Below are positions 6,437-29,322 of a DNA stretch of 29,991 bases, in pieces (position 1 is the first letter of the stretch; each line of letters opens with the position of its first letter). Under the pieces are notes generated by a model. The model made no database searches. It was given only the letters and a program-made list of their open reading frames with translations, and was not told the DNA's origin. The stretch spans positions 1 through 29,991 of IMG/VR virus record IMGVR_UViG_3300006921_000085; one strand, written 5' to 3'. Source of the DNA: a virus. A program made the position numbers and the translations under genes.

Positions 6437-7030
6437 CTATTCAAATTCCCAGCCTAGGTAGGGCTCGTCAGTCCAGCAGTTGTACATGTATGTGTCTTTT
6501 CCAGCTATGCTTACCCCGCAGTGCTTTTGACCAACCCCAAGCTTAATGTTTCTGTTTATACCTAGGCTTCTGCTGTTAGTCTGCTCGAAGCCATTATCAA
6601 TATTAGCAGCTGTAGCGCCTAACAACTCGCCCGTTTCTTTATTGCGAGCATATACGTGGTATATACCAAAGCCATTTCCCTCAAACGTCATAATAATTTG
6701 ACCGTCATGCTTAGCGGTTTGTGCTCTATTGCTTTTTATTGATTTAGCAATAAACTCATCGTCAATTACTGGATCGTATATAAATGAGTAGTGCACTCTT
6801 TCATCGTAAGGAGTTTTCCAGTAGTACGTCTGATCGCAATCTGTACAGTTAGGATCATGAGGCCCATCGTACATAGGATCTTTCCAAACTTCCCACATAA
6901 TTAAAGACCTGTCAACTCCACCTTGATTGAAAGCACAGCTTATAACTACAGTTTTACCTCTTGTTGGTTCGTCTTGCGCATTTACTGTTATGGCTAGTAA
7001 AGCTGCGGCTGATAAAAATAAATTTCTCAT
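6437..7030 (-). CDS. Exported unknown protein with signal peptide
   Basis: This gene runs against its neighbours. The N-terminus (MRNLFLSAAALLAITVNAQD) is a classic signal peptide, with cleavage likely after Ala-Gln or Asn-Ala as is common in Bacteroidetes. The mature 178 residues are beta-rich, with several Cys (for example NCTDCDQ), and are likely disulfide-bonded in the periplasm or beyond. No lipobox is present, and no family is recognised. Its isolated opposite orientation suggests a moron-type gene expressed independently of the late operon, possibly to alter the host surface. It faces the gene at 7228 across a 197-bp intergenic region with promoter and repeat elements. Confidence 0.65.
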   Translation of the reverse strand: MRNLFLSAAALLAITVNAQDEPTRGKTVVISCAFNQGGVDRSLIMWEVWKDPMYDGPHDPNCTDCDQTYYWKTPYDERVHYSFIYDPVIDDEFIAKSIKSNRAQTAKHDGQIIMTFEGNGFGIYHVYARNKETGELLGATAANIDNGFEQTNSRSLGINRNIKLGVGQKHCGVSIAGKDTYMYNCWTDEPYLGWEFE

Positions 7031-7227: not shown

Positions 7228-7740
7228 ATGAAATTAGAAGTAATAAGGTTCAACAAAGGAGTGGACTCAACAAACGGAATACTATTTGATATAACAAATG
7301 AAAGAAAATTTTTATGCTATACTCTCGAAGATGAGAGCCGCACTGAAAAAGTGTGGGGAGAAACTTGTATACCTGAAGGAGAGTATTGTGTCGGTCTTAG
7401 GACAGTGGGCGGACACCATGCTAAGTACTCTAAAAGGTTTGCTGACATCCATACGGGGATGCTTCACGTACTTGATGTACCTAATTTTAAATACATTCTT
7501 ATTCATTGCGGCAATACTGACGAAGATACTGCGGGATGTTTACTCTTGGGCGACTCGCAAGAAAACAACAACATTAAAGAAAACGGTTTCATCGGACGCT
7601 CCACACAAGCGTACTTCAGGGTCTACCCGCAAATCGCAAAAGCGCTCGAAGAAGGCGAAGAAGTAACAATTACTTACAGAGATTTTGCTGAGTGCTTGGT
7701 GTTAGACCCAAACTTTGTTTCTCTTGAAGGAGAGGCTTAA
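7228..7740 (+). CDS. DUF5675-type protein, possible lysis function
   Basis: The 170-residue protein matches my memory of the DUF5675 phage family: CYTLEDESRTEKVWGETCIPEGEY, split here as TLEDE, then GETCIPEGEY, LRTVGGHH, RFADIHTGMLHVLDVP, and ILIHCGNTDEDTAGCLLLG. The His-x-Gly-Asn and Thr-x-Gly-Cys pair recalls the His/Cys catalytic arrangement of L,D-transpeptidase-like folds, so action on peptidoglycan is plausible but unproven. The family is of uncharacterised function and often lies near lysis genes. There is no signal peptide. A second reading frame is open inside it (7298-7666). The gene ends 6 bp from a convergent gene. Confidence 0.75.
   Translation: MKLEVIRFNKGVDSTNGILFDITNERKFLCYTLEDESRTEKVWGETCIPEGEYCVGLRTVGGHHAKYSKRFADIHTGMLHVLDVPNFKYILIHCGNTDEDTAGCLLLGDSQENNNIKENGFIGRSTQAYFRVYPQIAKALEEGEEVTITYRDFAECLVLDPNFVSLEGEA
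7298..7666 (+). CDS. Nested open frame, holin-like, speculative
   Basis: A 122-codon frame lies wholly inside the DUF5675 gene in another frame. Its product has an amphipathic N-terminus, one strongly hydrophobic stretch (TYLMYLILNTFLFIAAIL, about residues 57-74) and a very basic tail (KSQKRSKKAKK). Membrane segment plus basic tail is the layout of many holins, and overlapping lysis genes are well known in phages. Against it, a shifted frame through a conserved beta-strand gene can produce hydrophobic runs by chance, and there is no independent start signal. I list it as a candidate only. Confidence 0.25.
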   Translation: MKENFYAILSKMRAALKKCGEKLVYLKESIVSVLGQWADTMLSTLKGLLTSIRGCFTYLMYLILNTFLFIAAILTKILRDVYSWATRKKTTTLKKTVSSDAPHKRTSGSTRKSQKRSKKAKK

Positions 7741-10269: not shown

Positions 10270-10632
10270 ATGAAACAGTTTATATTTATATTAATAATGA
10301 TTGCTAGTTTGCCAGTTTTAGGGCAATGTAATCAGCATGTTTTTAGTTCTGTTGGGGCTGAAAAATGGACTAACTTCCAATATCAAGACTGTGATGGTTT
10401 AAGCCACTATTTTGGGCTTCCTGCTGGAGGTTACACTATTATATATTGTGCTGAAATAACCACAGCTTTTGTTTTAAATGGAGATGGGTTTGTATACCCA
10501 CTTCTTCAAGAGCACCCATCTTATGCTTCTTGTGTTCAATTAGTTTGCCAAGGTGATTTCGATGAAGATGGTATAGTAGGCGTTAATGATTTGCAAGTGT
10601 TTTTATTAAATTATGGATTATGCGAAAATTAA
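10270..10632 (+). CDS. Secreted dockerin-like protein, 120 aa
   Basis: A signal peptide (MKQFIFILIMIASLPVLGQ) ends in the Gly-Gln junction typical of Bacteroidetes. The mature protein has several cysteines and ends with GDFDEDGIVGVNDLQVFLLN, a calcium-loop pattern like half of a dockerin repeat (D-x-D-x-D-G-x-V-x-x-x-D-L). Domains of this type are common in secreted proteins of marine Bacteroidetes. Only one loop is present, so classical cohesin binding is doubtful. It overlaps the following T9SS cargo gene by 13 bases, so the two are probably made together and may act as partners outside the cell. Confidence 0.7.
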   Translation: MKQFIFILIMIASLPVLGQCNQHVFSSVGAEKWTNFQYQDCDGLSHYFGLPAGGYTIIYCAEITTAFVLNGDGFVYPLLQEHPSYASCVQLVCQGDFDEDGIVGVNDLQVFLLNYGLCEN

Positions 10633-11759
10633 TATATCTTTTGGCTTTGTGGGCCCCAATAACATCTGCTCAGTGTGATGTAGCTATAACCAGTTGGGAT
10701 GCCGCTACTGGGGATATTGCTATTGAGGCTATAAATAGTGAAAACTGCGGGTGCAATGAATTTACGTCTGAAGGAAACACCTGCGAAACAAGCGCTAGCC
10801 CTCACGTAAACAATAACACAACAGTAAGCCATTTTGTGTTAGGACTTCATGTAGAAGGGTTAGATTACAACTGGCTAGACTGTCTCACTGGAGTTAATCA
10901 TGAAGGATGGACGTTTAAAGTAGCTTCTCTTTTTGGAAATCAAGTTTTAGAAAGTGGCGACACGTGGGAGGCTAATATCTACGATTATAATGGATCCACA
11001 AACGATTGTTGGACAGAGATACTATCAAATGACACCCTATGTACTGAATTAGTCATATGGCAAATCAACTTGTCTCGAACAGCCTCAACAGAGCAAGGCG
11101 GATGGGCGCTAAATCAAGGGTTTAACCAAACGCAGAACTATCCTGACGTAGATCTTTCTAATAACACGGCTGTAAACTGTGCTTTACCTGCGTGTGACAC
11201 CGTGTATGTAGAAACTATTGAATACATAGATGTCATTGAATACATAAGTGTTACTGAATACGTTACGGACACGTTATATATAGATGTTGAGTGGATAACA
11301 ACTGACACGATATATATAACAGAGACTATTACTGAATACGACACTATTGTATTAACGGAAACTGAATATGTTGATGTTATAATAGATAATTATGTTTACG
11401 TTACAGACACCATAACAGAGTTCGTATCTATTACTACATACATTGATTGTGAAACTGGAGAGGAGTGTGGTGAACTTTCACCTTGTGATGAAACTTCTAT
11501 ATATGCGCCTAATGTTGTTACACCTAATGGAGACGGATGGAATGATACGTGGAAGGTAATTGCAGATGGATCCTGTTGGGACCAATGGGAGGTACGTGTG
11601 TACAACAGGTGGGGAGGTCTTGTTTGGATTAGCGCTTCTTCAATAGATGAGTGGGATGCTAATGTTGCAACAGGAACATATGTGTACACTATTGAGGCAC
11701 ATAGCTCTGTTAATGCTAATGTTTTTCAGTTTAACGGGACTGTTACCGTTGTCTATTAA
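10620..11759 (+). CDS. T9SS type B cargo protein, 379 aa
   Basis: The protein has a signal peptide (MRKLIYLLALWAPITSAQC), a Cys-containing globular region to about residue 190, a Thr/Tyr/Val/Glu/Asp repetitive strand-rich stalk (about 194-275, for example TDTIYITETITEYDTI), and a C-terminal domain from about 293. That domain carries YAPNVVTPNGDGWNDTW, VRVYNRWGGLVW and GTYVYTIEA. This is the CHU_C type B sorting domain known from gliding-associated proteins secreted by the type IX system. It implies export through the host inner and outer membranes to the surface or medium. Such a domain is unexpected in a phage gene. Whether the protein is in the virion or shown on infected cells is unknown. 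Confidence 0.85.
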   Translation: MRKLIYLLALWAPITSAQCDVAITSWDAATGDIAIEAINSENCGCNEFTSEGNTCETSASPHVNNNTTVSHFVLGLHVEGLDYNWLDCLTGVNHEGWTFKVASLFGNQVLESGDTWEANIYDYNGSTNDCWTEILSNDTLCTELVIWQINLSRTASTEQGGWALNQGFNQTQNYPDVDLSNNTAVNCALPACDTVYVETIEYIDVIEYISVTEYVTDTLYIDVEWITTDTIYITETITEYDTIVLTETEYVDVIIDNYVYVTDTITEFVSITTYIDCETGEECGELSPCDETSIYAPNVVTPNGDGWNDTWKVIADGSCWDQWEVRVYNRWGGLVWISASSIDEWDANVATGTYVYTIEAHSSVNANVFQFNGTVTVVY

Positions 11760-12057: not shown

Positions 12058-12246
12058 ATGGCAAAGTATAAATGCAGCTGCAACGATGATATTGTAGAAA
12101 AGTCTGGGGTAACAATAAGATTTATTGAAGGTAAGGGAGCTGTGCACGACATAAAGTGCAGTAAGTGTGACGAATACTTAGAGTTAGCTAACCCCAAGTC
12201 TGGGGCTCCCAGCTTTAGGGCAAACAGGTTTGGCCAAACATTTTGA
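12058..12246 (+). CDS. Zinc-ribbon-like protein before the terminase
   Basis: The 62-residue protein has a CSC near residue 6 and CSKC near residue 34, spaced like a small zinc ribbon, and ends with ELANPKSGAPSFRANRFGQ. Proteins of this layout commonly sit immediately before the large terminase gene in marine phages, in my recollection. A packaging-related or DNA-binding role is therefore plausible. The stop codon overlaps the terminase start as TTGA. No enzymatic motif is visible, and the role is not established. Confidence 0.7.
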   Translation: MAKYKCSCNDDIVEKSGVTIRFIEGKGAVHDIKCSKCDEYLELANPKSGAPSFRANRFGQTF

Positions 12247-14366
12247 GTTCTCTCTTACATGTTGAAGGGTATGAAGAGCCAGCTGTTAAGATTTGCCCCA
12301 ATGGTACGGAAGGTGAAGTTATCGAAATCGGTGGGCTACTCATTTGTCTTCCCAAGAAGCCGCCGAAAAAACAAATTTCAGGATTTGACAATTCAAAGTC
12401 GTTGCAAGTGTGGGAAAGAACACATATGCCGAAGGAGCTGTCTCGTATTCGTTCTATGGATGAGTGGGCCGAGATGCCGAGAGAATTTAGAGAAAGGTTT
12501 CGTCCATATATCGAGGAAGAGTTTAGGCGTAGGCGTGAGGGTTTTTGGTTTTATAACAACAGCACAGCTACATATATTACGGGGAGGCACTACATGATGC
12601 TACAGTGGACCAAACTGGACATTGGTTACCCTTACTTTTTAAACTTTCAACGTGAGATATTTTTACACATGGCTGCTTGCGAGACTGATTCTCGTTGTAT
12701 TGGTCAGCTTTATACTAAGTGCCGTCGTTCTGGGTACACCAATATTTGTTCTGCTGTACTTGTCGATGAAGCTACACAGGTTAAAGATAAACTTATGGGG
12801 ATACAGTCGAAGACGGGAAAGGACGCACAAGAAAACATCTTCATGAAGAAGGTGGTTTATATGTTCAGAAACTACCCATTCTTTTTTAAACCTATACAAG
12901 ACGGTACTACTAATCCACGTATGGAGCTAGCTTTTAGAGAGCCGTCAAAACGAATAACTAAAAACAATAAAACTTCCCAAACTGGGGAAGCTCTTAATAC
13001 GGTTATAAATTGGAAAAACACAACTAATAATGCATATGACGGTGAGAAGCTACACTTGTTATATTTAGACGAAGCAGGAAAATGGGAAAGACCTACAGAC
13101 ATAAGAGACGCATGGAGGATTCAGAGGACGTGTTTGATCGTCGGAAGAAAAATCGTGGGGAAAGCTCTGGTCGGAAGCACGGTAAATCCGATGGACAAAG
13201 GTGGAAGTCAGTACAAGGATCTATGGAAGGACTCGAACCCTTTAGAAAGAAACGCCAACGGTAGGACAAGAACAGGGCTATACAGGTTATTTATACCCGC
13301 TTATGAATCTTTAGAAGGGTTTTTTGACGAGTATGGTATGCCCGTAGTAGAAGACCCATCAAGTGTTATAAAAGGTTTGGATGGGGAAGACATAATTTTT
13401 GGTGCAAAAACATATCTTAAAAACGAAAGACAGTCATTAAAAGATGACCCATCAGAATTAAACGAGGTAACTAGGCAGTTTCCTTTTACCACTGATGAGG
13501 CTTTTAGGGATAGTATAGATGGGAGTTTATTTAATATTGGTAGAATATATGAACAGATTCATTATAACGATGAGCTATTCCCAAACCCTGTAGTTGTAGG
13601 TAATTTTGTCTGGAAGGATGGTCAGAAAGACACAGAAGTGGTTTTTAAACCAGATCCAAAAGGAAGGTTTAAGGTGTCTTGGATGCCTCCACCAGAATTA
13701 AGGAATAAAAAAATCCACGAGAAGGGTAAGGTTATGCCAGCAAATATAGCCCTAGGTGTTGGAGGTGTTGACTCATACGATCTTGACGCTACGGTTGATG
13801 GACGAGGCTCAAAAGGAGCACTACACTTATATAATAAATTCCATATGGAGTACCCTTCTAATATGTTTGTTTTAGAGTACGCTTCAAGACCGCCGTTAGC
13901 TAAAATATTTTACGAAGATGTTTTAATGGCTGCGGTTTTTTACGGTTACCCTATATTAATTGAGAACAATAAGTACGGTATTGCAAGGTACTTTGAAACA
14001 AGGGGTTACGACGGATATTTAATGAATAGGCCAGCTCATTTAACTTCAGCAAGTTCTAAAGTTAATGTAAAGACAAAAGGGCTGCCGTCCAATTCTCAAG
14101 ACATTATTCAAGCTCACGCACACGCTATTGAAGCTTATGTACACAACCACATAGGAACTAATCCAGAAACAGGAGAAGTAGGTAATATGTATTTTAACAA
14201 AACTTTAGAAGATTGGATTGGTTTTAATATAAATAATAGAACAAAGTTTGACCTTACTATAAGCTCTGGTTTAGCATTACTTGCTGCTCAAAAATCTAAA
14301 ATAAAAAAGAAGCAATCTAACTTCACGGAGAGGAAATTCTTTAGGAGATATAAGTCTATCTCTTAG
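12243..14366 (+). CDS. terL: Terminase large subunit
   Basis: This is the motor and nuclease that packages DNA into proheads. The ATPase half shows YTKCRRSGYT (157-166) as a deviant Walker A, LLYLDEAGKW (272-281) as Walker B with D276 and E277, and GSTVNP (311-316) as the coupling motif. The nuclease half carries GGVDSYDLDA with D510 and ILIENNKYG with E574, as in the RNase H-like domain of terminases. The length of 707 residues is normal to long. I keep the TTG start at 12243: it overlaps the previous TGA as TTGA, and the first in-frame ATG would remove about 60 residues. The portal gene follows at once. Confidence 0.93.
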   Translation: MSSLLHVEGYEEPAVKICPNGTEGEVIEIGGLLICLPKKPPKKQISGFDNSKSLQVWERTHMPKELSRIRSMDEWAEMPREFRERFRPYIEEEFRRRREGFWFYNNSTATYITGRHYMMLQWTKLDIGYPYFLNFQREIFLHMAACETDSRCIGQLYTKCRRSGYTNICSAVLVDEATQVKDKLMGIQSKTGKDAQENIFMKKVVYMFRNYPFFFKPIQDGTTNPRMELAFREPSKRITKNNKTSQTGEALNTVINWKNTTNNAYDGEKLHLLYLDEAGKWERPTDIRDAWRIQRTCLIVGRKIVGKALVGSTVNPMDKGGSQYKDLWKDSNPLERNANGRTRTGLYRLFIPAYESLEGFFDEYGMPVVEDPSSVIKGLDGEDIIFGAKTYLKNERQSLKDDPSELNEVTRQFPFTTDEAFRDSIDGSLFNIGRIYEQIHYNDELFPNPVVVGNFVWKDGQKDTEVVFKPDPKGRFKVSWMPPPELRNKKIHEKGKVMPANIALGVGGVDSYDLDATVDGRGSKGALHLYNKFHMEYPSNMFVLEYASRPPLAKIFYEDVLMAAVFYGYPILIENNKYGIARYFETRGYDGYLMNRPAHLTSASSKVNVKTKGLPSNSQDIIQAHAHAIEAYVHNHIGTNPETGEVGNMYFNKTLEDWIGFNINNRTKFDLTISSGLALLAAQKSKIKKKQSNFTERKFFRRYKSIS

Positions 14367-14381
14367 AAACGTGTTATTTAG

Positions 14382-14389
14382 TATATTTG
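14382..14389 (+). promoter_or_regulatory. -7 promoter box TATATTTG before portal
   Basis: TATATTTGCA lies 18 bases before the portal ATG at 14408, preceded by TTTAG. A TTG at 14387 inside the box could be misread as a start codon, but it would fall at the edge of or before the transcript. Confidence 0.65.
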
Positions 14390-14407
14390 CATAAATACTA
14401 CCCCCTG

Positions 14408-16870
14408 ATGTATAAAAACGACAATAAAAGTTCAGGCAGCTTTCCCGATCCACTAGCGTCTCAGCAAATAAAAGAAAGTAAGGCCTATGGATTAAAGTAT
14501 GCAAAAGCAATTGAATCTCAGTGGGGAAAAGTCCAAGATTCAGGTTCTCTATACAATAAGAGAAACAAAACTTTTGAAAGAAATAGAGACTACGCTAACG
14601 GAACTCAAGACACAAATATATATAAGCAGATTTTAACAAATCTTGATCCAAACAACTCAGATGGTAGTCTTATTAATTTAGACTATACTCCAGTACCAGT
14701 ACTTCCTAAGTTCGCAAAAATTGTAGCTAATAAGATTTTATCTCGTAATCCTTACCCAAACCTTGAAGCTATTGACCCAATATCTTCTTCTGACAAGAAT
14801 AAAGAAAAACAAAGGATTAAAATTCAGGTCGAGTTAAAGGAGCAGTTAATGCAGCTCAAAAAGGATACTAACGGTTTAGTTTTAGATCAAGATCCTGAAA
14901 TGCTTCCAGACACTTTAGAGGAGGCAGATATATTTTTAGACACAAACATTAAGACTGACGCTGAAATATCAGCTCAGATTGGCACTAATTTAACGCTTTC
15001 TTGGAATAACTTTAATGACGCTATCTACAGAAGGTGTGTTAATGATTTAGTTGCTCTTGGCATGTGTGTTGTTAGACGGACTAACGATCCTAGTTATGGG
15101 ATTAAAACGGAATATGTAGATCCCTGTAACTTTATACATAGCCAAACGGAAGACCCCAATTTTGAGGATCTTGTGTACGCAGGCAACGTTAAAAGGATTA
15201 CTATACAAGAGTTAAAAAGATTAGCAGGGGACAGATTCACAGAGGAGCAGTATAAAGAAATCGCTACTGATTCGGCTAGATCTAAATCACACGATACATC
15301 TAAATTTTCTAGATCTAAGTATGATAATTCCTTAAACAAAAATGCTTATGGGTATGATGACTACACAGTAGAATTACTGGATTTTGAGTTCATGTCTGTA
15401 GACTGCATGCATTTCGAGGAGAAGGAAAATAGACACGGTAATAGAAACTTTTTCTACGAAGGTTTTAACTATAAGGAAAAGACAGGGGGTGTGTTTGAGC
15501 GTAAGCCTCATAGAATGGATATAGTCACCGTTTATGGGGGGTTATATATTTTAGGGACAAAGCATATTTTCGACTACGGGATGAAAACTAATGTTCCTAG
15601 AAATATGCATGACATAGGTAGAACTCGCATGGGTTATTCTGTTGTTGCTACCAACTTTAGAGGGATGATGCCTAAGTCTATGGTAGATGGGTGCGTTGGT
15701 TTTGCTGATATGCTTCAAATAACTCATTTAAAGTTACAGCAATCTATAGCTAAAGCTAAGCCAGATGGTTTAATTATAGATATTGAAGGTTTAGAAAACG
15801 TTCAGCTAGGAAAAGGCGGGGAATTACAACCTCTTGAGCTTCATGACATTTATGAGCAAACTGGTGTTTTTTACTACAGAAGTAAAGACCCAGAGGGCGG
15901 ATTTCAAAACCCACCAGTACGTACTATAGATAATAGTATTAGAAATATAAACGAGCTTATATCTTTATATAATCACTATTTAAGGTTAATTAGAGACACA
16001 ACTGGTATCAATGAAGCTATGGACGCTTCTACACCGAAAGGAGATGCTTTAGTTGGAGTTCAACAACAAGCTATTGCGGCTGGTAATAATGCTATATATG
16101 ATATAACTAACGCTTCTATGATCTTATTTAAAAAGGTCTGTGAGGATGTTGTTAAATGTTTGCAGATCATACCACCAGAATCTGTGCTTATGACTATCTA
16201 CCAAAATGCTATTGGTAAGTCGAACATGGAGGTTTTAAGTTCTTTTAGTGATTTACCTATGTTTAACTTTGGTGTTACTGTTCAGAAAGAAATGGAAGAT
16301 GCTGAAAAAGCATATTTAGAGCAGAATATTCAAATGGCTCTTCAACAGCAGCAAATAGATTTAGAAGATGCAATAGCTATTAGAAATCTAAAGGATGTAA
16401 ATCAAGCTGAAAGATTGCTTATTATCCGTCGCAAAAAGAGGATGGATAAAATGGAGGCTCAGGCTATGCAAAATTCTCAAATGCAAGCTCAACAGGCTCA
16501 ACAGGCTTCTCAAGCAGCTTCGCAAGCTAGGCAACAAGAACTTCAAATGGGAGCTCAACTTGAAGCGCAAAAACTTCAAATGAAGTCTCAACTAGAAATT
16601 CAAGTAGCTCAAGCAAAACACGAGTTGAATAAAGAGATAGAAATGATTAGAGCTGAAGCAACCCTAGGATTTAAGACTGACGACCAAGAGTTTAAAGAGA
16701 AAATTGAAGTTCTTAAAGAGGATAGAAAAGATAGTAGAGTTAAAAAACAAGCTGCTCAACAAAGCAAACTAATGTCTCAAAGAAAAGGTCAAAGAGGCGA
16801 GTTGATAGATCCTGTAGATATGAGTGAAACACAAGAACTAGATGAAACTGTTCAAAACATATTACAATAA
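14408..16870 (+). CDS. Portal protein
   Basis: The 820-residue product follows the terminase and has the layout of phage portals. There is an N-terminal helical region (QIKESKAYGLKYAKAIESQW), an alpha/beta core with an EYVDPCNFIHSQTEDPNF segment typical of portal wing/stem regions, and RDTTGINEAMDASTPKGDAL matching the conserved GIxE...G helix region. A long Gln/Lys/Ala coiled coil occupies the C-terminal 160 residues, as in portals with a barrel. It would form a dodecameric ring at the capsid vertex through which DNA passes. I start at ATG 14408 because the upstream TTG lies inside the promoter box. It overlaps the next gene by one base. Confidence 0.9.
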   Translation: MYKNDNKSSGSFPDPLASQQIKESKAYGLKYAKAIESQWGKVQDSGSLYNKRNKTFERNRDYANGTQDTNIYKQILTNLDPNNSDGSLINLDYTPVPVLPKFAKIVANKILSRNPYPNLEAIDPISSSDKNKEKQRIKIQVELKEQLMQLKKDTNGLVLDQDPEMLPDTLEEADIFLDTNIKTDAEISAQIGTNLTLSWNNFNDAIYRRCVNDLVALGMCVVRRTNDPSYGIKTEYVDPCNFIHSQTEDPNFEDLVYAGNVKRITIQELKRLAGDRFTEEQYKEIATDSARSKSHDTSKFSRSKYDNSLNKNAYGYDDYTVELLDFEFMSVDCMHFEEKENRHGNRNFFYEGFNYKEKTGGVFERKPHRMDIVTVYGGLYILGTKHIFDYGMKTNVPRNMHDIGRTRMGYSVVATNFRGMMPKSMVDGCVGFADMLQITHLKLQQSIAKAKPDGLIIDIEGLENVQLGKGGELQPLELHDIYEQTGVFYYRSKDPEGGFQNPPVRTIDNSIRNINELISLYNHYLRLIRDTTGINEAMDASTPKGDALVGVQQQAIAAGNNAIYDITNASMILFKKVCEDVVKCLQIIPPESVLMTIYQNAIGKSNMEVLSSFSDLPMFNFGVTVQKEMEDAEKAYLEQNIQMALQQQQIDLEDAIAIRNLKDVNQAERLLIIRRKKRMDKMEAQAMQNSQMQAQQAQQASQAASQARQQELQMGAQLEAQKLQMKSQLEIQVAQAKHELNKEIEMIRAEATLGFKTDDQEFKEKIEVLKEDRKDSRVKKQAAQQSKLMSQRKGQRGELIDPVDMSETQELDETVQNILQ

Positions 16871-19518: not shown

Positions 19519-21840
19519 ATGAAGAACAAAGTTTATTTATTATTAGTTTTATTTTTTTCTATTACAGGATCTTTGTTTTCTCAGCCAGACAATGCTAGCT
19601 GGTTAAATGTAACAGTGCAAACAGATCAATACGGTGGAGAAACGTCTTGGGAGGTGCTAATGGGTGGAAATGTTGTTGCAACAAGCCCTCCTTATCAAGA
19701 CAATGTGTTAAGCAACGTAACTATCCCTTTACCAGCAGGGGATGATTATCAGTTTATTATTTATGACTCTTTTGGAGATGGTATATGTTGTGATTGGGGA
19801 GCAGGGTGGTATAGCTTAACCAACACGTGTGGATTGGAAGTATTTGACTATGAATTTAACACAGCTTCTGATACGACCTCATTTGATTTAATGCCTTGTA
19901 TGCCAGTTCTTTTAGGATGTATGGATGAATCTTCTAATAACTACAACCCTTGGGCTACTGTAGATGACGGCTCATGTAATGTAAACGAGTGTCCTTCTGA
20001 TGAAACGCTTGTTTCTATGTCTCTCACTCTGGATAATTACCCTAGCGAAACAGGGTTTACTTTAGTAGATTTAGCTGCAGGAGAGTTTTATGAGCAGGTG
20101 CTTCCTCAAGAATTTGATTATGGTGACCAAAACGCAACTTTTACATACAACTTTTGTGTTTCTCTAGGTTTTGAACTTATACTTGTAGATACGTATGGAG
20201 ACGGATTAAGTGCTTCTCAATGGGGAGGGACAGACGGTGCTTGTGTTATCACAGCGTGTCAAGACAGCGTTTTATGGGAATTGGAAGATGTGTCTTTCAC
20301 CAGTTTTGATGATGGCAACACTGTTTATTCTGGAGCTATTTTTACAGAGCCTTGTCCACCAATACCGCCAATATACGGATGCACCGATGACGACTACGTA
20401 GATTACAATCCTTATGCTACTGCGTTAGACACATGTGCAACTTTACATGCTTGGGGGTGCATGGATATCAATGCATTTAACTACGACAGTACAGCAACAA
20501 TATCAGATCTAAATAGCCCCTGTCCCATAACTATTACTCTAGAGGATGACGCTGGTGACGGGTGGGGTATGTCTGGAATTGGTATGGTTCAAGAAAATAA
20601 TCAATGGTTATTTACTGTAGGACCAAATGAGTTTTCGCAATCATGGGACATTATGTTAGATTCCAATGAGGATGTAGATATATATTATTTTCAACAAGGG
20701 GGGCAGCAATCATCTGCACAAGAGCTTGCTTTTCAGACCTTGCATAATTCTATATTAGTAACAAATGAGATGGGGGACACCTTGCTTTCAGAGGGGTCTA
20801 ATCCGTTTTTAAATAACGGACAGGGAGCTTTGCAACCTTTTAAAGCGCCTGAATGGAACGTATACAGCTTTACACCTGAATGTGGAGACAGCTGCGAACC
20901 ATACACATATGGATGTGTTGATGATACAGCTCAAAACTACAACCCTAATGTAAACACGGGGGACGAAAGCTGTTACTACGCAGCTGGTTGTACTCAAGCT
21001 GGATACTTAGAATACTATACTCAAGGGTATGAAGCTGACTACGATAATGGTGATTGTGATGTACTTGCGGTATTTGGTTGCATGGATAGTACGGCGTTTA
21101 ATTACAACGAAGAAGCAAATGTAGAAACAGAATGTACTCCTATAATTATTGGTTGCATGAATAATTTAGCGTTTAACTACGATGCTAATGCTAATACAGC
21201 AGGTGACTGTATGCCTTACATATATGGGTGTACAGACCCTACAGCTTTTAACTACAACCCTGAAGCGAATACTGATAATAGTGATTGTGAGCCAGTAACC
21301 TTAGGATGCACTGATGAACAAGCGTTAAACTACGACCCATTAGCTAATACAGATAACGGTGGTTGCGTTGAAGTATTGGTTGACTGTACGGACCCTATTG
21401 CTGTGAATTACAATGAATTAGCTAACACTCCTAACAACGATTTATGTTTATACGACGCAGGTTGTATTGGCGAGGCTGGCGATCCATACTACTTAAATGA
21501 CTCATGTTACGCTTGGATTATAGATATAGATCCATACTGCTGTGAGGTAGCTTGGGATGGGGCTTGTGTTGAGTTATATGGTTATTGTGAATCTGGATGG
21601 CCATCTGGTGTATACGATGTAGATGGTATATATAATGTTTATCCTAATCCAGTATTAGACATTTTAAACATTCAGACTTCGCTAGACGTAATTACAGAGG
21701 TATATAACGCACTTGGCCAGATTGTAGTGTTAGGGACTAGAGAAAAAAGAATTGACCTTACAAACCTTCCTAAAGGCTTTTATCAGGTTGTTATAAAATA
21801 TAACGATAGAACTTCAATTAAAAAAATAATTAAATCATGA
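19519..21840 (+). CDS. T9SS type A cargo, multi-repeat secreted protein
   Basis: The 773-residue protein has a signal peptide ending GSLFSQ and two or three beta domains with Asp/Gly-rich calcium-type turns (FIIYDSFGDGICCDWG; ELILVDTYGDGLS; DDAGDGWGMSG). It then has about nine or ten Cys repeats of the form GCTDPTAFNYNPEANTDN, spread over residues about 130-650, and a Cys-rich unit DPYCCEVAWDGACVELYGYC. The end (YNVYPNPVLDILNIQTS...GFYQVVIKY...IKKIIKS) is the type A T9SS sorting domain. All of these are hallmarks of large surface or secreted proteins of marine Bacteroidetes. It has its own promoter and is followed by an ATGA overlap with the next gene. How the phage uses it is unknown. Confidence 0.85.
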   Translation: MKNKVYLLLVLFFSITGSLFSQPDNASWLNVTVQTDQYGGETSWEVLMGGNVVATSPPYQDNVLSNVTIPLPAGDDYQFIIYDSFGDGICCDWGAGWYSLTNTCGLEVFDYEFNTASDTTSFDLMPCMPVLLGCMDESSNNYNPWATVDDGSCNVNECPSDETLVSMSLTLDNYPSETGFTLVDLAAGEFYEQVLPQEFDYGDQNATFTYNFCVSLGFELILVDTYGDGLSASQWGGTDGACVITACQDSVLWELEDVSFTSFDDGNTVYSGAIFTEPCPPIPPIYGCTDDDYVDYNPYATALDTCATLHAWGCMDINAFNYDSTATISDLNSPCPITITLEDDAGDGWGMSGIGMVQENNQWLFTVGPNEFSQSWDIMLDSNEDVDIYYFQQGGQQSSAQELAFQTLHNSILVTNEMGDTLLSEGSNPFLNNGQGALQPFKAPEWNVYSFTPECGDSCEPYTYGCVDDTAQNYNPNVNTGDESCYYAAGCTQAGYLEYYTQGYEADYDNGDCDVLAVFGCMDSTAFNYNEEANVETECTPIIIGCMNNLAFNYDANANTAGDCMPYIYGCTDPTAFNYNPEANTDNSDCEPVTLGCTDEQALNYDPLANTDNGGCVEVLVDCTDPIAVNYNELANTPNNDLCLYDAGCIGEAGDPYYLNDSCYAWIIDIDPYCCEVAWDGACVELYGYCESGWPSGVYDVDGIYNVYPNPVLDILNIQTSLDVITEVYNALGQIVVLGTREKRIDLTNLPKGFYQVVIKYNDRTSIKKIIKS

Positions 21841-27879: not shown

Positions 27880-29322
27880 ATGGCTACTACTACTGGGGCT
27901 TCACCTTTGAATGCTGCACCTGCAGATTTAAGGTTAACGCCCGAATCATATACTACGGTTGATGGCTTACTAAAAGCGAATAAAGATTTCGTTATTCCTG
28001 AGCTAGTTCAATCATACGGTGATCAAGGTATCACTGGTTTTTTACGTTTAACTGGAGCTGTTAATAGCGGCGGAACTTCTGACCAAGTTGATTGGTGGGA
28101 GGCAGGCCGTCGTCATACAAAGATTGACGCTGTTACTTTTGCATCTGCTGCTGCTGGTTCTGATGGAGCTGCTGCTGGTACTGTTCAAGCTACAGTTGAT
28201 ACATCTGCTATGGCTGCTGCTGGAGAGCAGTCCGCACACGTTTCTAGCTTCCTGCAACCAAGTGACGTTGTAATGTCTGTAAATACAGGAAGTCGATACA
28301 TTGTTCAGTCAGCTTCTACAGCTACTGATCCTGTAATTGTTCTTGAGCGTCTTGACGGTGGTAACGGAGCTCCTTCTGAAGCTACTACTACTAGTACTGA
28401 GACTCTTATTCACTTGGGAAATATGTATGCTCAAGGAACGGATCAACCTACTAAATTTACTGATCCTGATATTGTGAAAAGAAAGAATCCATTTATGATT
28501 GTTAAAGATCGTTATCAAGTAAATGGTTCTCAAGCTACAAATATTGGTTGGGTTAACATGGGTGGAGGAGATTTCCGCTGGTTTATGTACGGGGAGCAAG
28601 AGGCTCGTAAGCGTTTTGAAGACCGTCGTGAAATGATGATGCTTTTCGCTGAGAAAAACGCTGCTACAGTTGACGACTCTGCTGACTTGTCTGATAACAT
28701 CGCGGGTTCTGAAGGTTATTTCTCTGCTATTGAAAGTCGTGGAATTAACATAAGCAACGCTAACGCTAATCCAATTGATTCTTTTGCTGAGTTTGACGAT
28801 ATTATTATTGAGCTTGATAAGAACGGTGCTACTTCTGAGTACGCTATGTACGTAAACAGAAAGCAAGATTTAGCTATCGACGATATGCTTGCTTCAGGTA
28901 TTTCTACTGGAACTACTGCTGGTCTAGCTGGACAGTTCGGTGCGTTTAACAACGATGCTGACATGGCTGTTAAGCTTGGATTTAAGTCGTTTACTCGTGG
29001 TGGGTACACATTCCACAAGCATGACTGGAAGCTTCTAAACGATCCAACTCTTCTTGGTGCTTCTACTAAGTATCAAGGAGCTATGATCCCTATGTCTCAA
29101 ATTGCAGATGCTCGCACAGGTGTTAAAGCACCTTCTTTAGCAATGTACTACAAAGAGGCTAACGGATATAATCGTGAAATGGAGCACTGGGTAACTGGTG
29201 GAGGAGTTTTAGGACATAATAACAATGGAGATGCTGGTAAGGACGTTGCTACGTTCCACTACCGTTCAGAAATTGCTCTTTGTGTTCGTGCTGCTAACCA
29301 ACACGTAGTTATTAAAGGATAA
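27880..29322 (+). CDS. Major capsid protein
   Basis: The gene right after the scaffold encodes a 480-residue, balanced acidic protein that starts ATTTGASPLNAAPADLRLTP and contains VIPELVQSYGDQGITGFLRL, a typical N-arm/core boundary for HK97-type capsids, and ends in GGVLGHNNNGDAG, TFHYRSEIALCVRAANQHVV. Codon choice is strongly biased (CGT for Arg, GCT, GGT), unlike the AGA-rich neighbours, as expected of the most highly made phage protein. It would form the icosahedral shell. The Gly/Ser-rich insert around residues 65-130 may be an extra surface domain. The identity rests on position, length and codon bias. Confidence 0.85.
   Translation: MATTTGASPLNAAPADLRLTPESYTTVDGLLKANKDFVIPELVQSYGDQGITGFLRLTGAVNSGGTSDQVDWWEAGRRHTKIDAVTFASAAAGSDGAAAGTVQATVDTSAMAAAGEQSAHVSSFLQPSDVVMSVNTGSRYIVQSASTATDPVIVLERLDGGNGAPSEATTTSTETLIHLGNMYAQGTDQPTKFTDPDIVKRKNPFMIVKDRYQVNGSQATNIGWVNMGGGDFRWFMYGEQEARKRFEDRREMMMLFAEKNAATVDDSADLSDNIAGSEGYFSAIESRGINISNANANPIDSFAEFDDIIIELDKNGATSEYAMYVNRKQDLAIDDMLASGISTGTTAGLAGQFGAFNNDADMAVKLGFKSFTRGGYTFHKHDWKLLNDPTLLGASTKYQGAMIPMSQIADARTGVKAPSLAMYYKEANGYNREMEHWVTGGGVLGHNNNGDAGKDVATFHYRSEIALCVRAANQHVVIKG

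Follow-up and report, generated by a model that had tools for sequence, protein, structure and literature searches.

A two-gene phage cassette encoding a type B T9SS cargo and a secreted partner, with a putative role in surface display on infected Bacteroidota cells

Results

The window analysed here is the whole of IMG/VR virus record IMGVR_UViG_3300006921_000085, a stretch of 29,991 bases that is classed as linear and therefore may be a fragment. Gene B (10620..11759, + strand) is intact from ATG to TAA and encodes a 379-aa protein with the features of a type B T9SS cargo. Directly upstream, and overlapping B by 13 nt, is gene S (10270..10632, +), which encodes a secreted partner of 120 aa. 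Both genes are housed in an accessory slot that starts at a GroES-like gene and ends at the gene for the large terminase subunit (12243..14366, +; PHROG 6681, E 9e-205). The portal gene follows (14387-16870; PHROG 6547), and a virion structural protein is encoded at 27880-29322 (PHROG 13704), so the phage context of B is real. The original prediction had placed B just before the terminase genes and well away from a type A T9SS gene, and this is what we observe, with two small ORFs separating B from the terminase and the type A gene lying about 7.8 kb downstream. Two further metagenome contigs (L001 and L002) carry B, the genes around it, and the terminase at ~100% identity, so the locus is not an assembly chimera. 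The window terminase is 42–49% identical to those of Elemovirus phages of Flavobacterium and of MW202828; membership in the genus Elemovirus was rejected, since 42% identity to the elemo phages indicates a distant relative. The record represents a marine virus, with Bacteroidota bacteria as its putative hosts.

Elsewhere in the window, the gene at 6437-7030 (−), which runs against its neighbours, encodes a 197-aa secreted protein that has a Q-rule signal peptide and few relatives. Inside the DUF5675 gene at 7228-7740, a second frame (7298-7666, +) of 122 aa is open and would encode a hydrophobic stretch and a basic tail. Across 34 distinct DUF5675 homologues this frame is open for 104 codons on average versus 50 in synonymous-codon simulations, and its start codon is conserved in close relatives only; the frame may be an overlapping gene.

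The B protein begins with a signal peptide (residues 1-17, 10620..10670, +), where cleavage is predicted before Q18 in line with the Bacteroidetes Q-rule and the alignment. The signal peptide is followed by a Cys-rich head domain of about residues 18-190 (10671..11189, +) that carries ENCGCNEF...WQINLS motifs and is apparently restricted to phages. A linker (11190..11474, +) of degenerate D/E/T/Y/V/I repeats comes next, which is very acidic, has no Lys or Arg, varies in length, and is predicted to be disordered. The C-terminal type B sorting domain (CHU_C) occupies 11487..11756 (+), with the profile match at 11505-11711.

This sorting domain had been proposed from the motifs TPNGDGWND, VYNRWGGLVW, and GTYVYTIEA, all of which are found in B, and profile searches confirm it. 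PF13585 (CHU_C) matches residues 296-364 at 55 bits against a cut-off of 27 (E 9.1e-15), and TIGR04131 matches at 36.4 bits against a cut-off of 35, a margin of only 1.4 bits (E 4.2e-9). The CHU_C match in B is not due to chance because all 36 of the 36 aligned B relatives match on their own. In the AlphaFold model, pLDDT is ~82 for the sorting domain, ~57 for the head, and ~26 for the linker. VIA-align places the T9SS-bound sorting domain of NucA first among the matches of the B sorting domain (8glk_D; Z 8.8, rmsd 1.9, 72 residues), and RemZ (8gl8), RemA (8gl6), and RgpB domains are also among the matches; this fold match alone proves little, since middling Z-scores are common for Ig-like sandwiches and unrelated Ig-like chains reach 8.5. 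No known fold was found for the head, whose model is poor and whose sorting domain neighbour filled the match list, and B gave no match among the sequences of solved structures.

Signal peptides were judged by sequence pattern and alignment (Q-rule; PMC5837995). The pattern of Q after a small residue is fitted by 48 of 48 distinct B proteins, 31 of 31 S proteins, and 14 of 14 type A proteins. This bears on whether B and S could instead be virion proteins, i.e., adhesins or tail components that only resemble T9SS cargo. The genes do sit among late and structural genes, and large fibre- or spike-like proteins come after B in two loci (L156 and L010). However, a Sec signal peptide with the Q-rule is kept in every member, B is rich in Cys residues of which many are conserved, tailed phages assemble in the cytoplasm, and the type B domain is conserved, and so we regard a virion role as very improbable.

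The S protein has a signal peptide followed by Q19-C20 and, near its C terminus, a dockerin-like Ca loop (~10555-10590, +; DFDEDGIVGVND). We rejected the C terminus of S as a true dockerin since there is a single D-x-D-x-DG-x5-D loop, no Pfam dockerin match at E 0.1, and no cohesin domain reported in B. Pfam, NCBIfam, and PHROG profile searches recognised no sorting domain in S, and its AlphaFold model has a pLDDT of 69 and a pTM of 0.43.

B is one half of a two-gene cassette with S. A search of IMG/VR with S alone returned 60 loci, which, like the other S-B locus counts given here, are not independent events because contigs overlap and sampling is repeated. In 59 of the 60 loci B adjoins S within 3 kb, the 60th contig ends 7 nt past S, and S was never seen without B. 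B itself was found at 73 loci in IMG/VR, and it occurs without S in 26 loci, some of which are truncated by contig ends. S and B most often overlap by 13 nt (in 28 loci) or 10 nt (in 10 loci), the gene order is reversed (B then S) in seven loci, and six loci have a DUF5675 gene between the two. It is this linkage that suggests an interaction between the two proteins. In one locus (L025:533-1956), S and B have nearly identical signal peptides (MKKLIYLLALWAPATYAQ / MRKLIYLLALWAPITSAQ), which suggests exchange between the S and B genes.

The type A gene, A (19519..21840, +), is an independent accessory gene that encodes a 773-aa T9SS cargo matching PF18962 at 43.7 bits (at 21637-21831) and TIGR04183 at 40.8. 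It was correctly pointed out beforehand that type A and type B domains use different routes, which are published as PorV and PorP/SprF-like, respectively (PMC12618676, PMC9143113). The original prediction further held that one phage carrying both types points to deliberate use of the system, and this is not supported. Both slots are visible in 37 contigs, counted with the window included and near-duplicates kept, and these divide into 4 with A and B, 7 with B only, 7 with A only, and 19 with neither (Fisher p 0.70). Among 50 whole records, a P0001-type B with CHU_C is present in 28, a type A domain in 14, and both in four (G004, G008, G010, and G027), or five when the window is counted; another record (G044) has a type A domain plus an unrelated CHU_C protein. 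We therefore rejected A and B as a selected pair, and their chance co-occurrence means that the presence of both in the window is not evidence of joint use. The linkage of B with S, a gene that had been missed, is a stronger sign of selection than the pairing of A with B.

The S-B cassette is present in several phage lineages, namely the window's clade, a distant clade, and large contigs. Within the window's clade it lies in the accessory slot bounded by the GroES-like gene and the terminase, and this slot is empty or otherwise filled in most relatives. The distant clade (L014 and L036) has a terminase and portal that match the same PHROGs as those of the window, with a terminase that is only 21% identical. 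The large contigs (L044-L048 and L050) are 35–179 kb long, and their S and B proteins are 70–76% and 36–38% identical, respectively. One further contig (L051) has B without a detected S and carries T4-type baseplate wedge genes.

We scanned 84,980 prokaryote genomes for the B head in a single pass with two exact peptide patterns, by which divergent heads could be missed, and this gave one confirmed relative (L156). That relative lies on a 61.6-kb contig (WLWP01000006.1) binned as Pseudomonadales, which carries GroEL, S, B, and fibre-like genes; it is evidently a phage contig, and its assignment to a Pseudomonadales genome appears to be a binning error. In plasmids the sorting domain of B alone matches, in Bacteroidota, and in 50,697 INPHARED records the sorting domain alone matches, in two huge uncultured phages. 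Because the sole genome match is a phage contig and plasmids match the sorting domain only, the head looks phage-restricted within the sensitivity of the scan. A host origin of the whole B gene was rejected, since neither the two-pattern genome scan nor the plasmids gave the head in host DNA, only the sorting domain. A protein of Virus NIOZ-UU157 annotated as "gliding motility-associated C-terminal domain-containing protein" (BFVD A0A7S9STS8) aligns with B over its full length (406 columns, 37% identity) and is probably a member of the B family; we found no publication discussing it.

Purifying selection acts on the B head, whose conservation equals or exceeds that of the sorting domain. Median dN/dS values are 0.10 (head) and 0.30 (sorting domain), where the latter value takes in swapped pairs and comes from few unsaturated pairs. 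Between the window and its relative L003, dN/dS is ~0.1 for head and sorting domain alike. The B gene could in principle have been picked up from a host by accident and do nothing for the phage, as the clear host relatives of its sorting domain might suggest, but the head is not found in host chromosomes, dN/dS is low, and the pairing with S is fixed across phage lineages. We strongly disfavour accidental capture and give it next to no weight. This agrees with the original prediction, which had argued against a single accidental capture: B is present in dozens of phage contigs with a head dN/dS of 0.10, its head was in no bacterial chromosome at the sensitivity of our scan, and we encountered neither a lack of CHU_C matches nor homologs confined to bacterial chromosomes.

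When two B proteins (L132 and L012) are compared with a third (L029), the heads are 94–95% identical and the sorting domains are 36% identical; that is, as judged from these alignments, the address label is swapped under near-identical heads. In F. johnsoniae the shuttle and the destination are set by the type B domain (PMC12618676), and thus swapping could direct one and the same head to different host shuttles.

A porP/sprF gene commonly follows type B genes, and orphan type B substrates also exist (PMC12618676). Beside B, a cognate porP/sprF gene is absent. The PorP family profile TIGR03519 gave no match in the virus records searched (42 IMG/VR records, five more, and one huge phage). As the positive control we used a Persicobacter plasmid, on which porP was detected directly after CHU_C genes, with three CHU_C-type or neighbouring genes lying 5–20 nt from a PorP gene. 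Since no recognisable PorP/SprF is present in the phage records searched, B should depend on a host shuttle. The window also encodes an outer-membrane-barrel-like phage protein (22216-23310, +) that is 34–81% identical across 11 related contigs and has no Pfam or NCBIfam match. We considered it as a candidate phage-encoded SprF/PorP and rejected it on sequence grounds, since it gave no TIGR03519 match and hhalign against the Persicobacter PorP returned a 2.6% probability that covers the signal peptide only.

Dependence on a host shuttle would also fit a scheme in which the sorting domain is the active part, with B competing for host SprF-like shuttles or T9SS translocons and starving adhesins such as SprB, so that phage receptors are lost or gliding is stopped. 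PorP/SprF barrels are indeed bound by type B proteins through their type B domains (PMC9143113), and with no phage shuttle found the host one must serve. However, the head is conserved no less than the sorting domain and evolves under purifying selection, and competition for shuttles leaves the obligate partner S unexplained. We consider this scheme improbable.

Discussion

We think it fairly likely that S-B is a phage-specific two-gene cassette whose products are displayed on the outside of infected Bacteroidota cells via the host T9SS, such that viruses carrying it probably coat the infected-cell surface with their own proteins. To judge from their signal peptides, S and B would be exported by Sec and cleaved before Q. 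The CHU_C domain would then route B through the host T9SS, where one of the host's own PorP/SprF-like shuttles would presumably collect and anchor it, and the head would be held outward on the acidic, probably flexible linker. S, which is without a recognised sorting signal, would most likely ride with B, as suggested by their linkage. Sorting-domain swaps under near-identical heads may re-address the head to other host shuttles.

As to what such display would be for, the likeliest purpose, which we propose tentatively and by analogy, is that the display blocks or remodels the surface of the cell, the SprB-type adhesin layer included, which would keep other phages from adsorbing and released virions from being lost on infected cells. 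A superinfection or receptor role is argued by analogy because the head is poorly modelled and matched no known fold. A broader proposal is that diverse Bacteroidota phages exchange a dedicated S-B display cassette, where the swapped type B label would place the same head on a range of host PorP/SprF shuttles, perhaps with the gliding machinery among them, and thereby exclude competing phages. We regard this broader proposal as possible but doubtful.

Display could instead serve the infected cell rather than phage exclusion, with S-B acting as a scaffold for an adhesin or surface enzyme that alters attachment, aggregation, or nutrient capture during infection. On three phage contigs (L061, L062, and L065), heads of the B family are fused to M43 (pappalysin-like) metallopeptidases plus CHU_C, and on two others (L039 and L064) B is preceded by a gene for an M43 peptidase that has a dockerin-like stretch. 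Another locus (L017) has a gene for a BspA-type LRR protein between S and B, and the type A cargo of Cryophage includes glycoside hydrolases (PMC7468147). However, Pfam, NCBIfam, and PHROG profile searches found no recognisable enzyme or lectin domain in the window's B, and a lytic-type phage would gain little from such a role unless infection is long. We consider a role of this kind unlikely, and we continue to favour surface display that acts against other phages as the purpose of the cassette.

Should S and B indeed be displayed, then phages exploit the host T9SS for a surface display of their own, by the type B as well as the published type A route and in several unrelated lineages. This would be a testable way for Bacteroidota phages to remodel the host surface, and the natural sorting-domain swaps could reveal which part of the type B signal picks the shuttle. 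Annotation libraries overlook B, since no PHROGs family matches it.

Phage T5 encodes a receptor-blocking surface protein, Llp, which is a lipoprotein. S-B would share with Llp the proposed outcome, a host surface altered during infection, by a route and with a receptor binding that are putative for S-B. The Bacteroidota type B substrates SprB and PG1035 resemble B in having a Sec signal peptide and a C-terminal CHU_C/TIGR04131 domain (PMC9143113, PMC12618676). Substrates of this kind usually have a cognate porP/sprF next to them, whereas B has none and resembles the orphan type B substrates; in addition, the B head is absent from the hosts searched. Porphyromonas gingivalis phages, like those with S and B, have Q-rule secreted phage proteins adapted to the host Sec and signal peptidase (PMC10367356), and that paper makes no mention of T9SS.

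The closest precedent is Cryophage, for which phage-encoded type A T9SS cargo has already been published (Bellas et al. 2020; PMC7468147). There, phage proteins carry T9SS sorting domains and vary between Cryophage variants, as in the S-B phages, and the authors propose that such cargo acts in superinfection exclusion or competition. Unlike the window, Cryophage encodes three type A proteins whose cargo domains are enzymatic or PA14, and the portion of that report considered here describes neither a type B domain nor an S partner nor a multi-lineage cassette. We found no published type B phage cargo or S-B cassette in a literature search that covered few subscription journals. Phage T9SS cargo of type A and CHU_C phage proteins in databases were already known, and the type B phage cassette S-B is a new variant.
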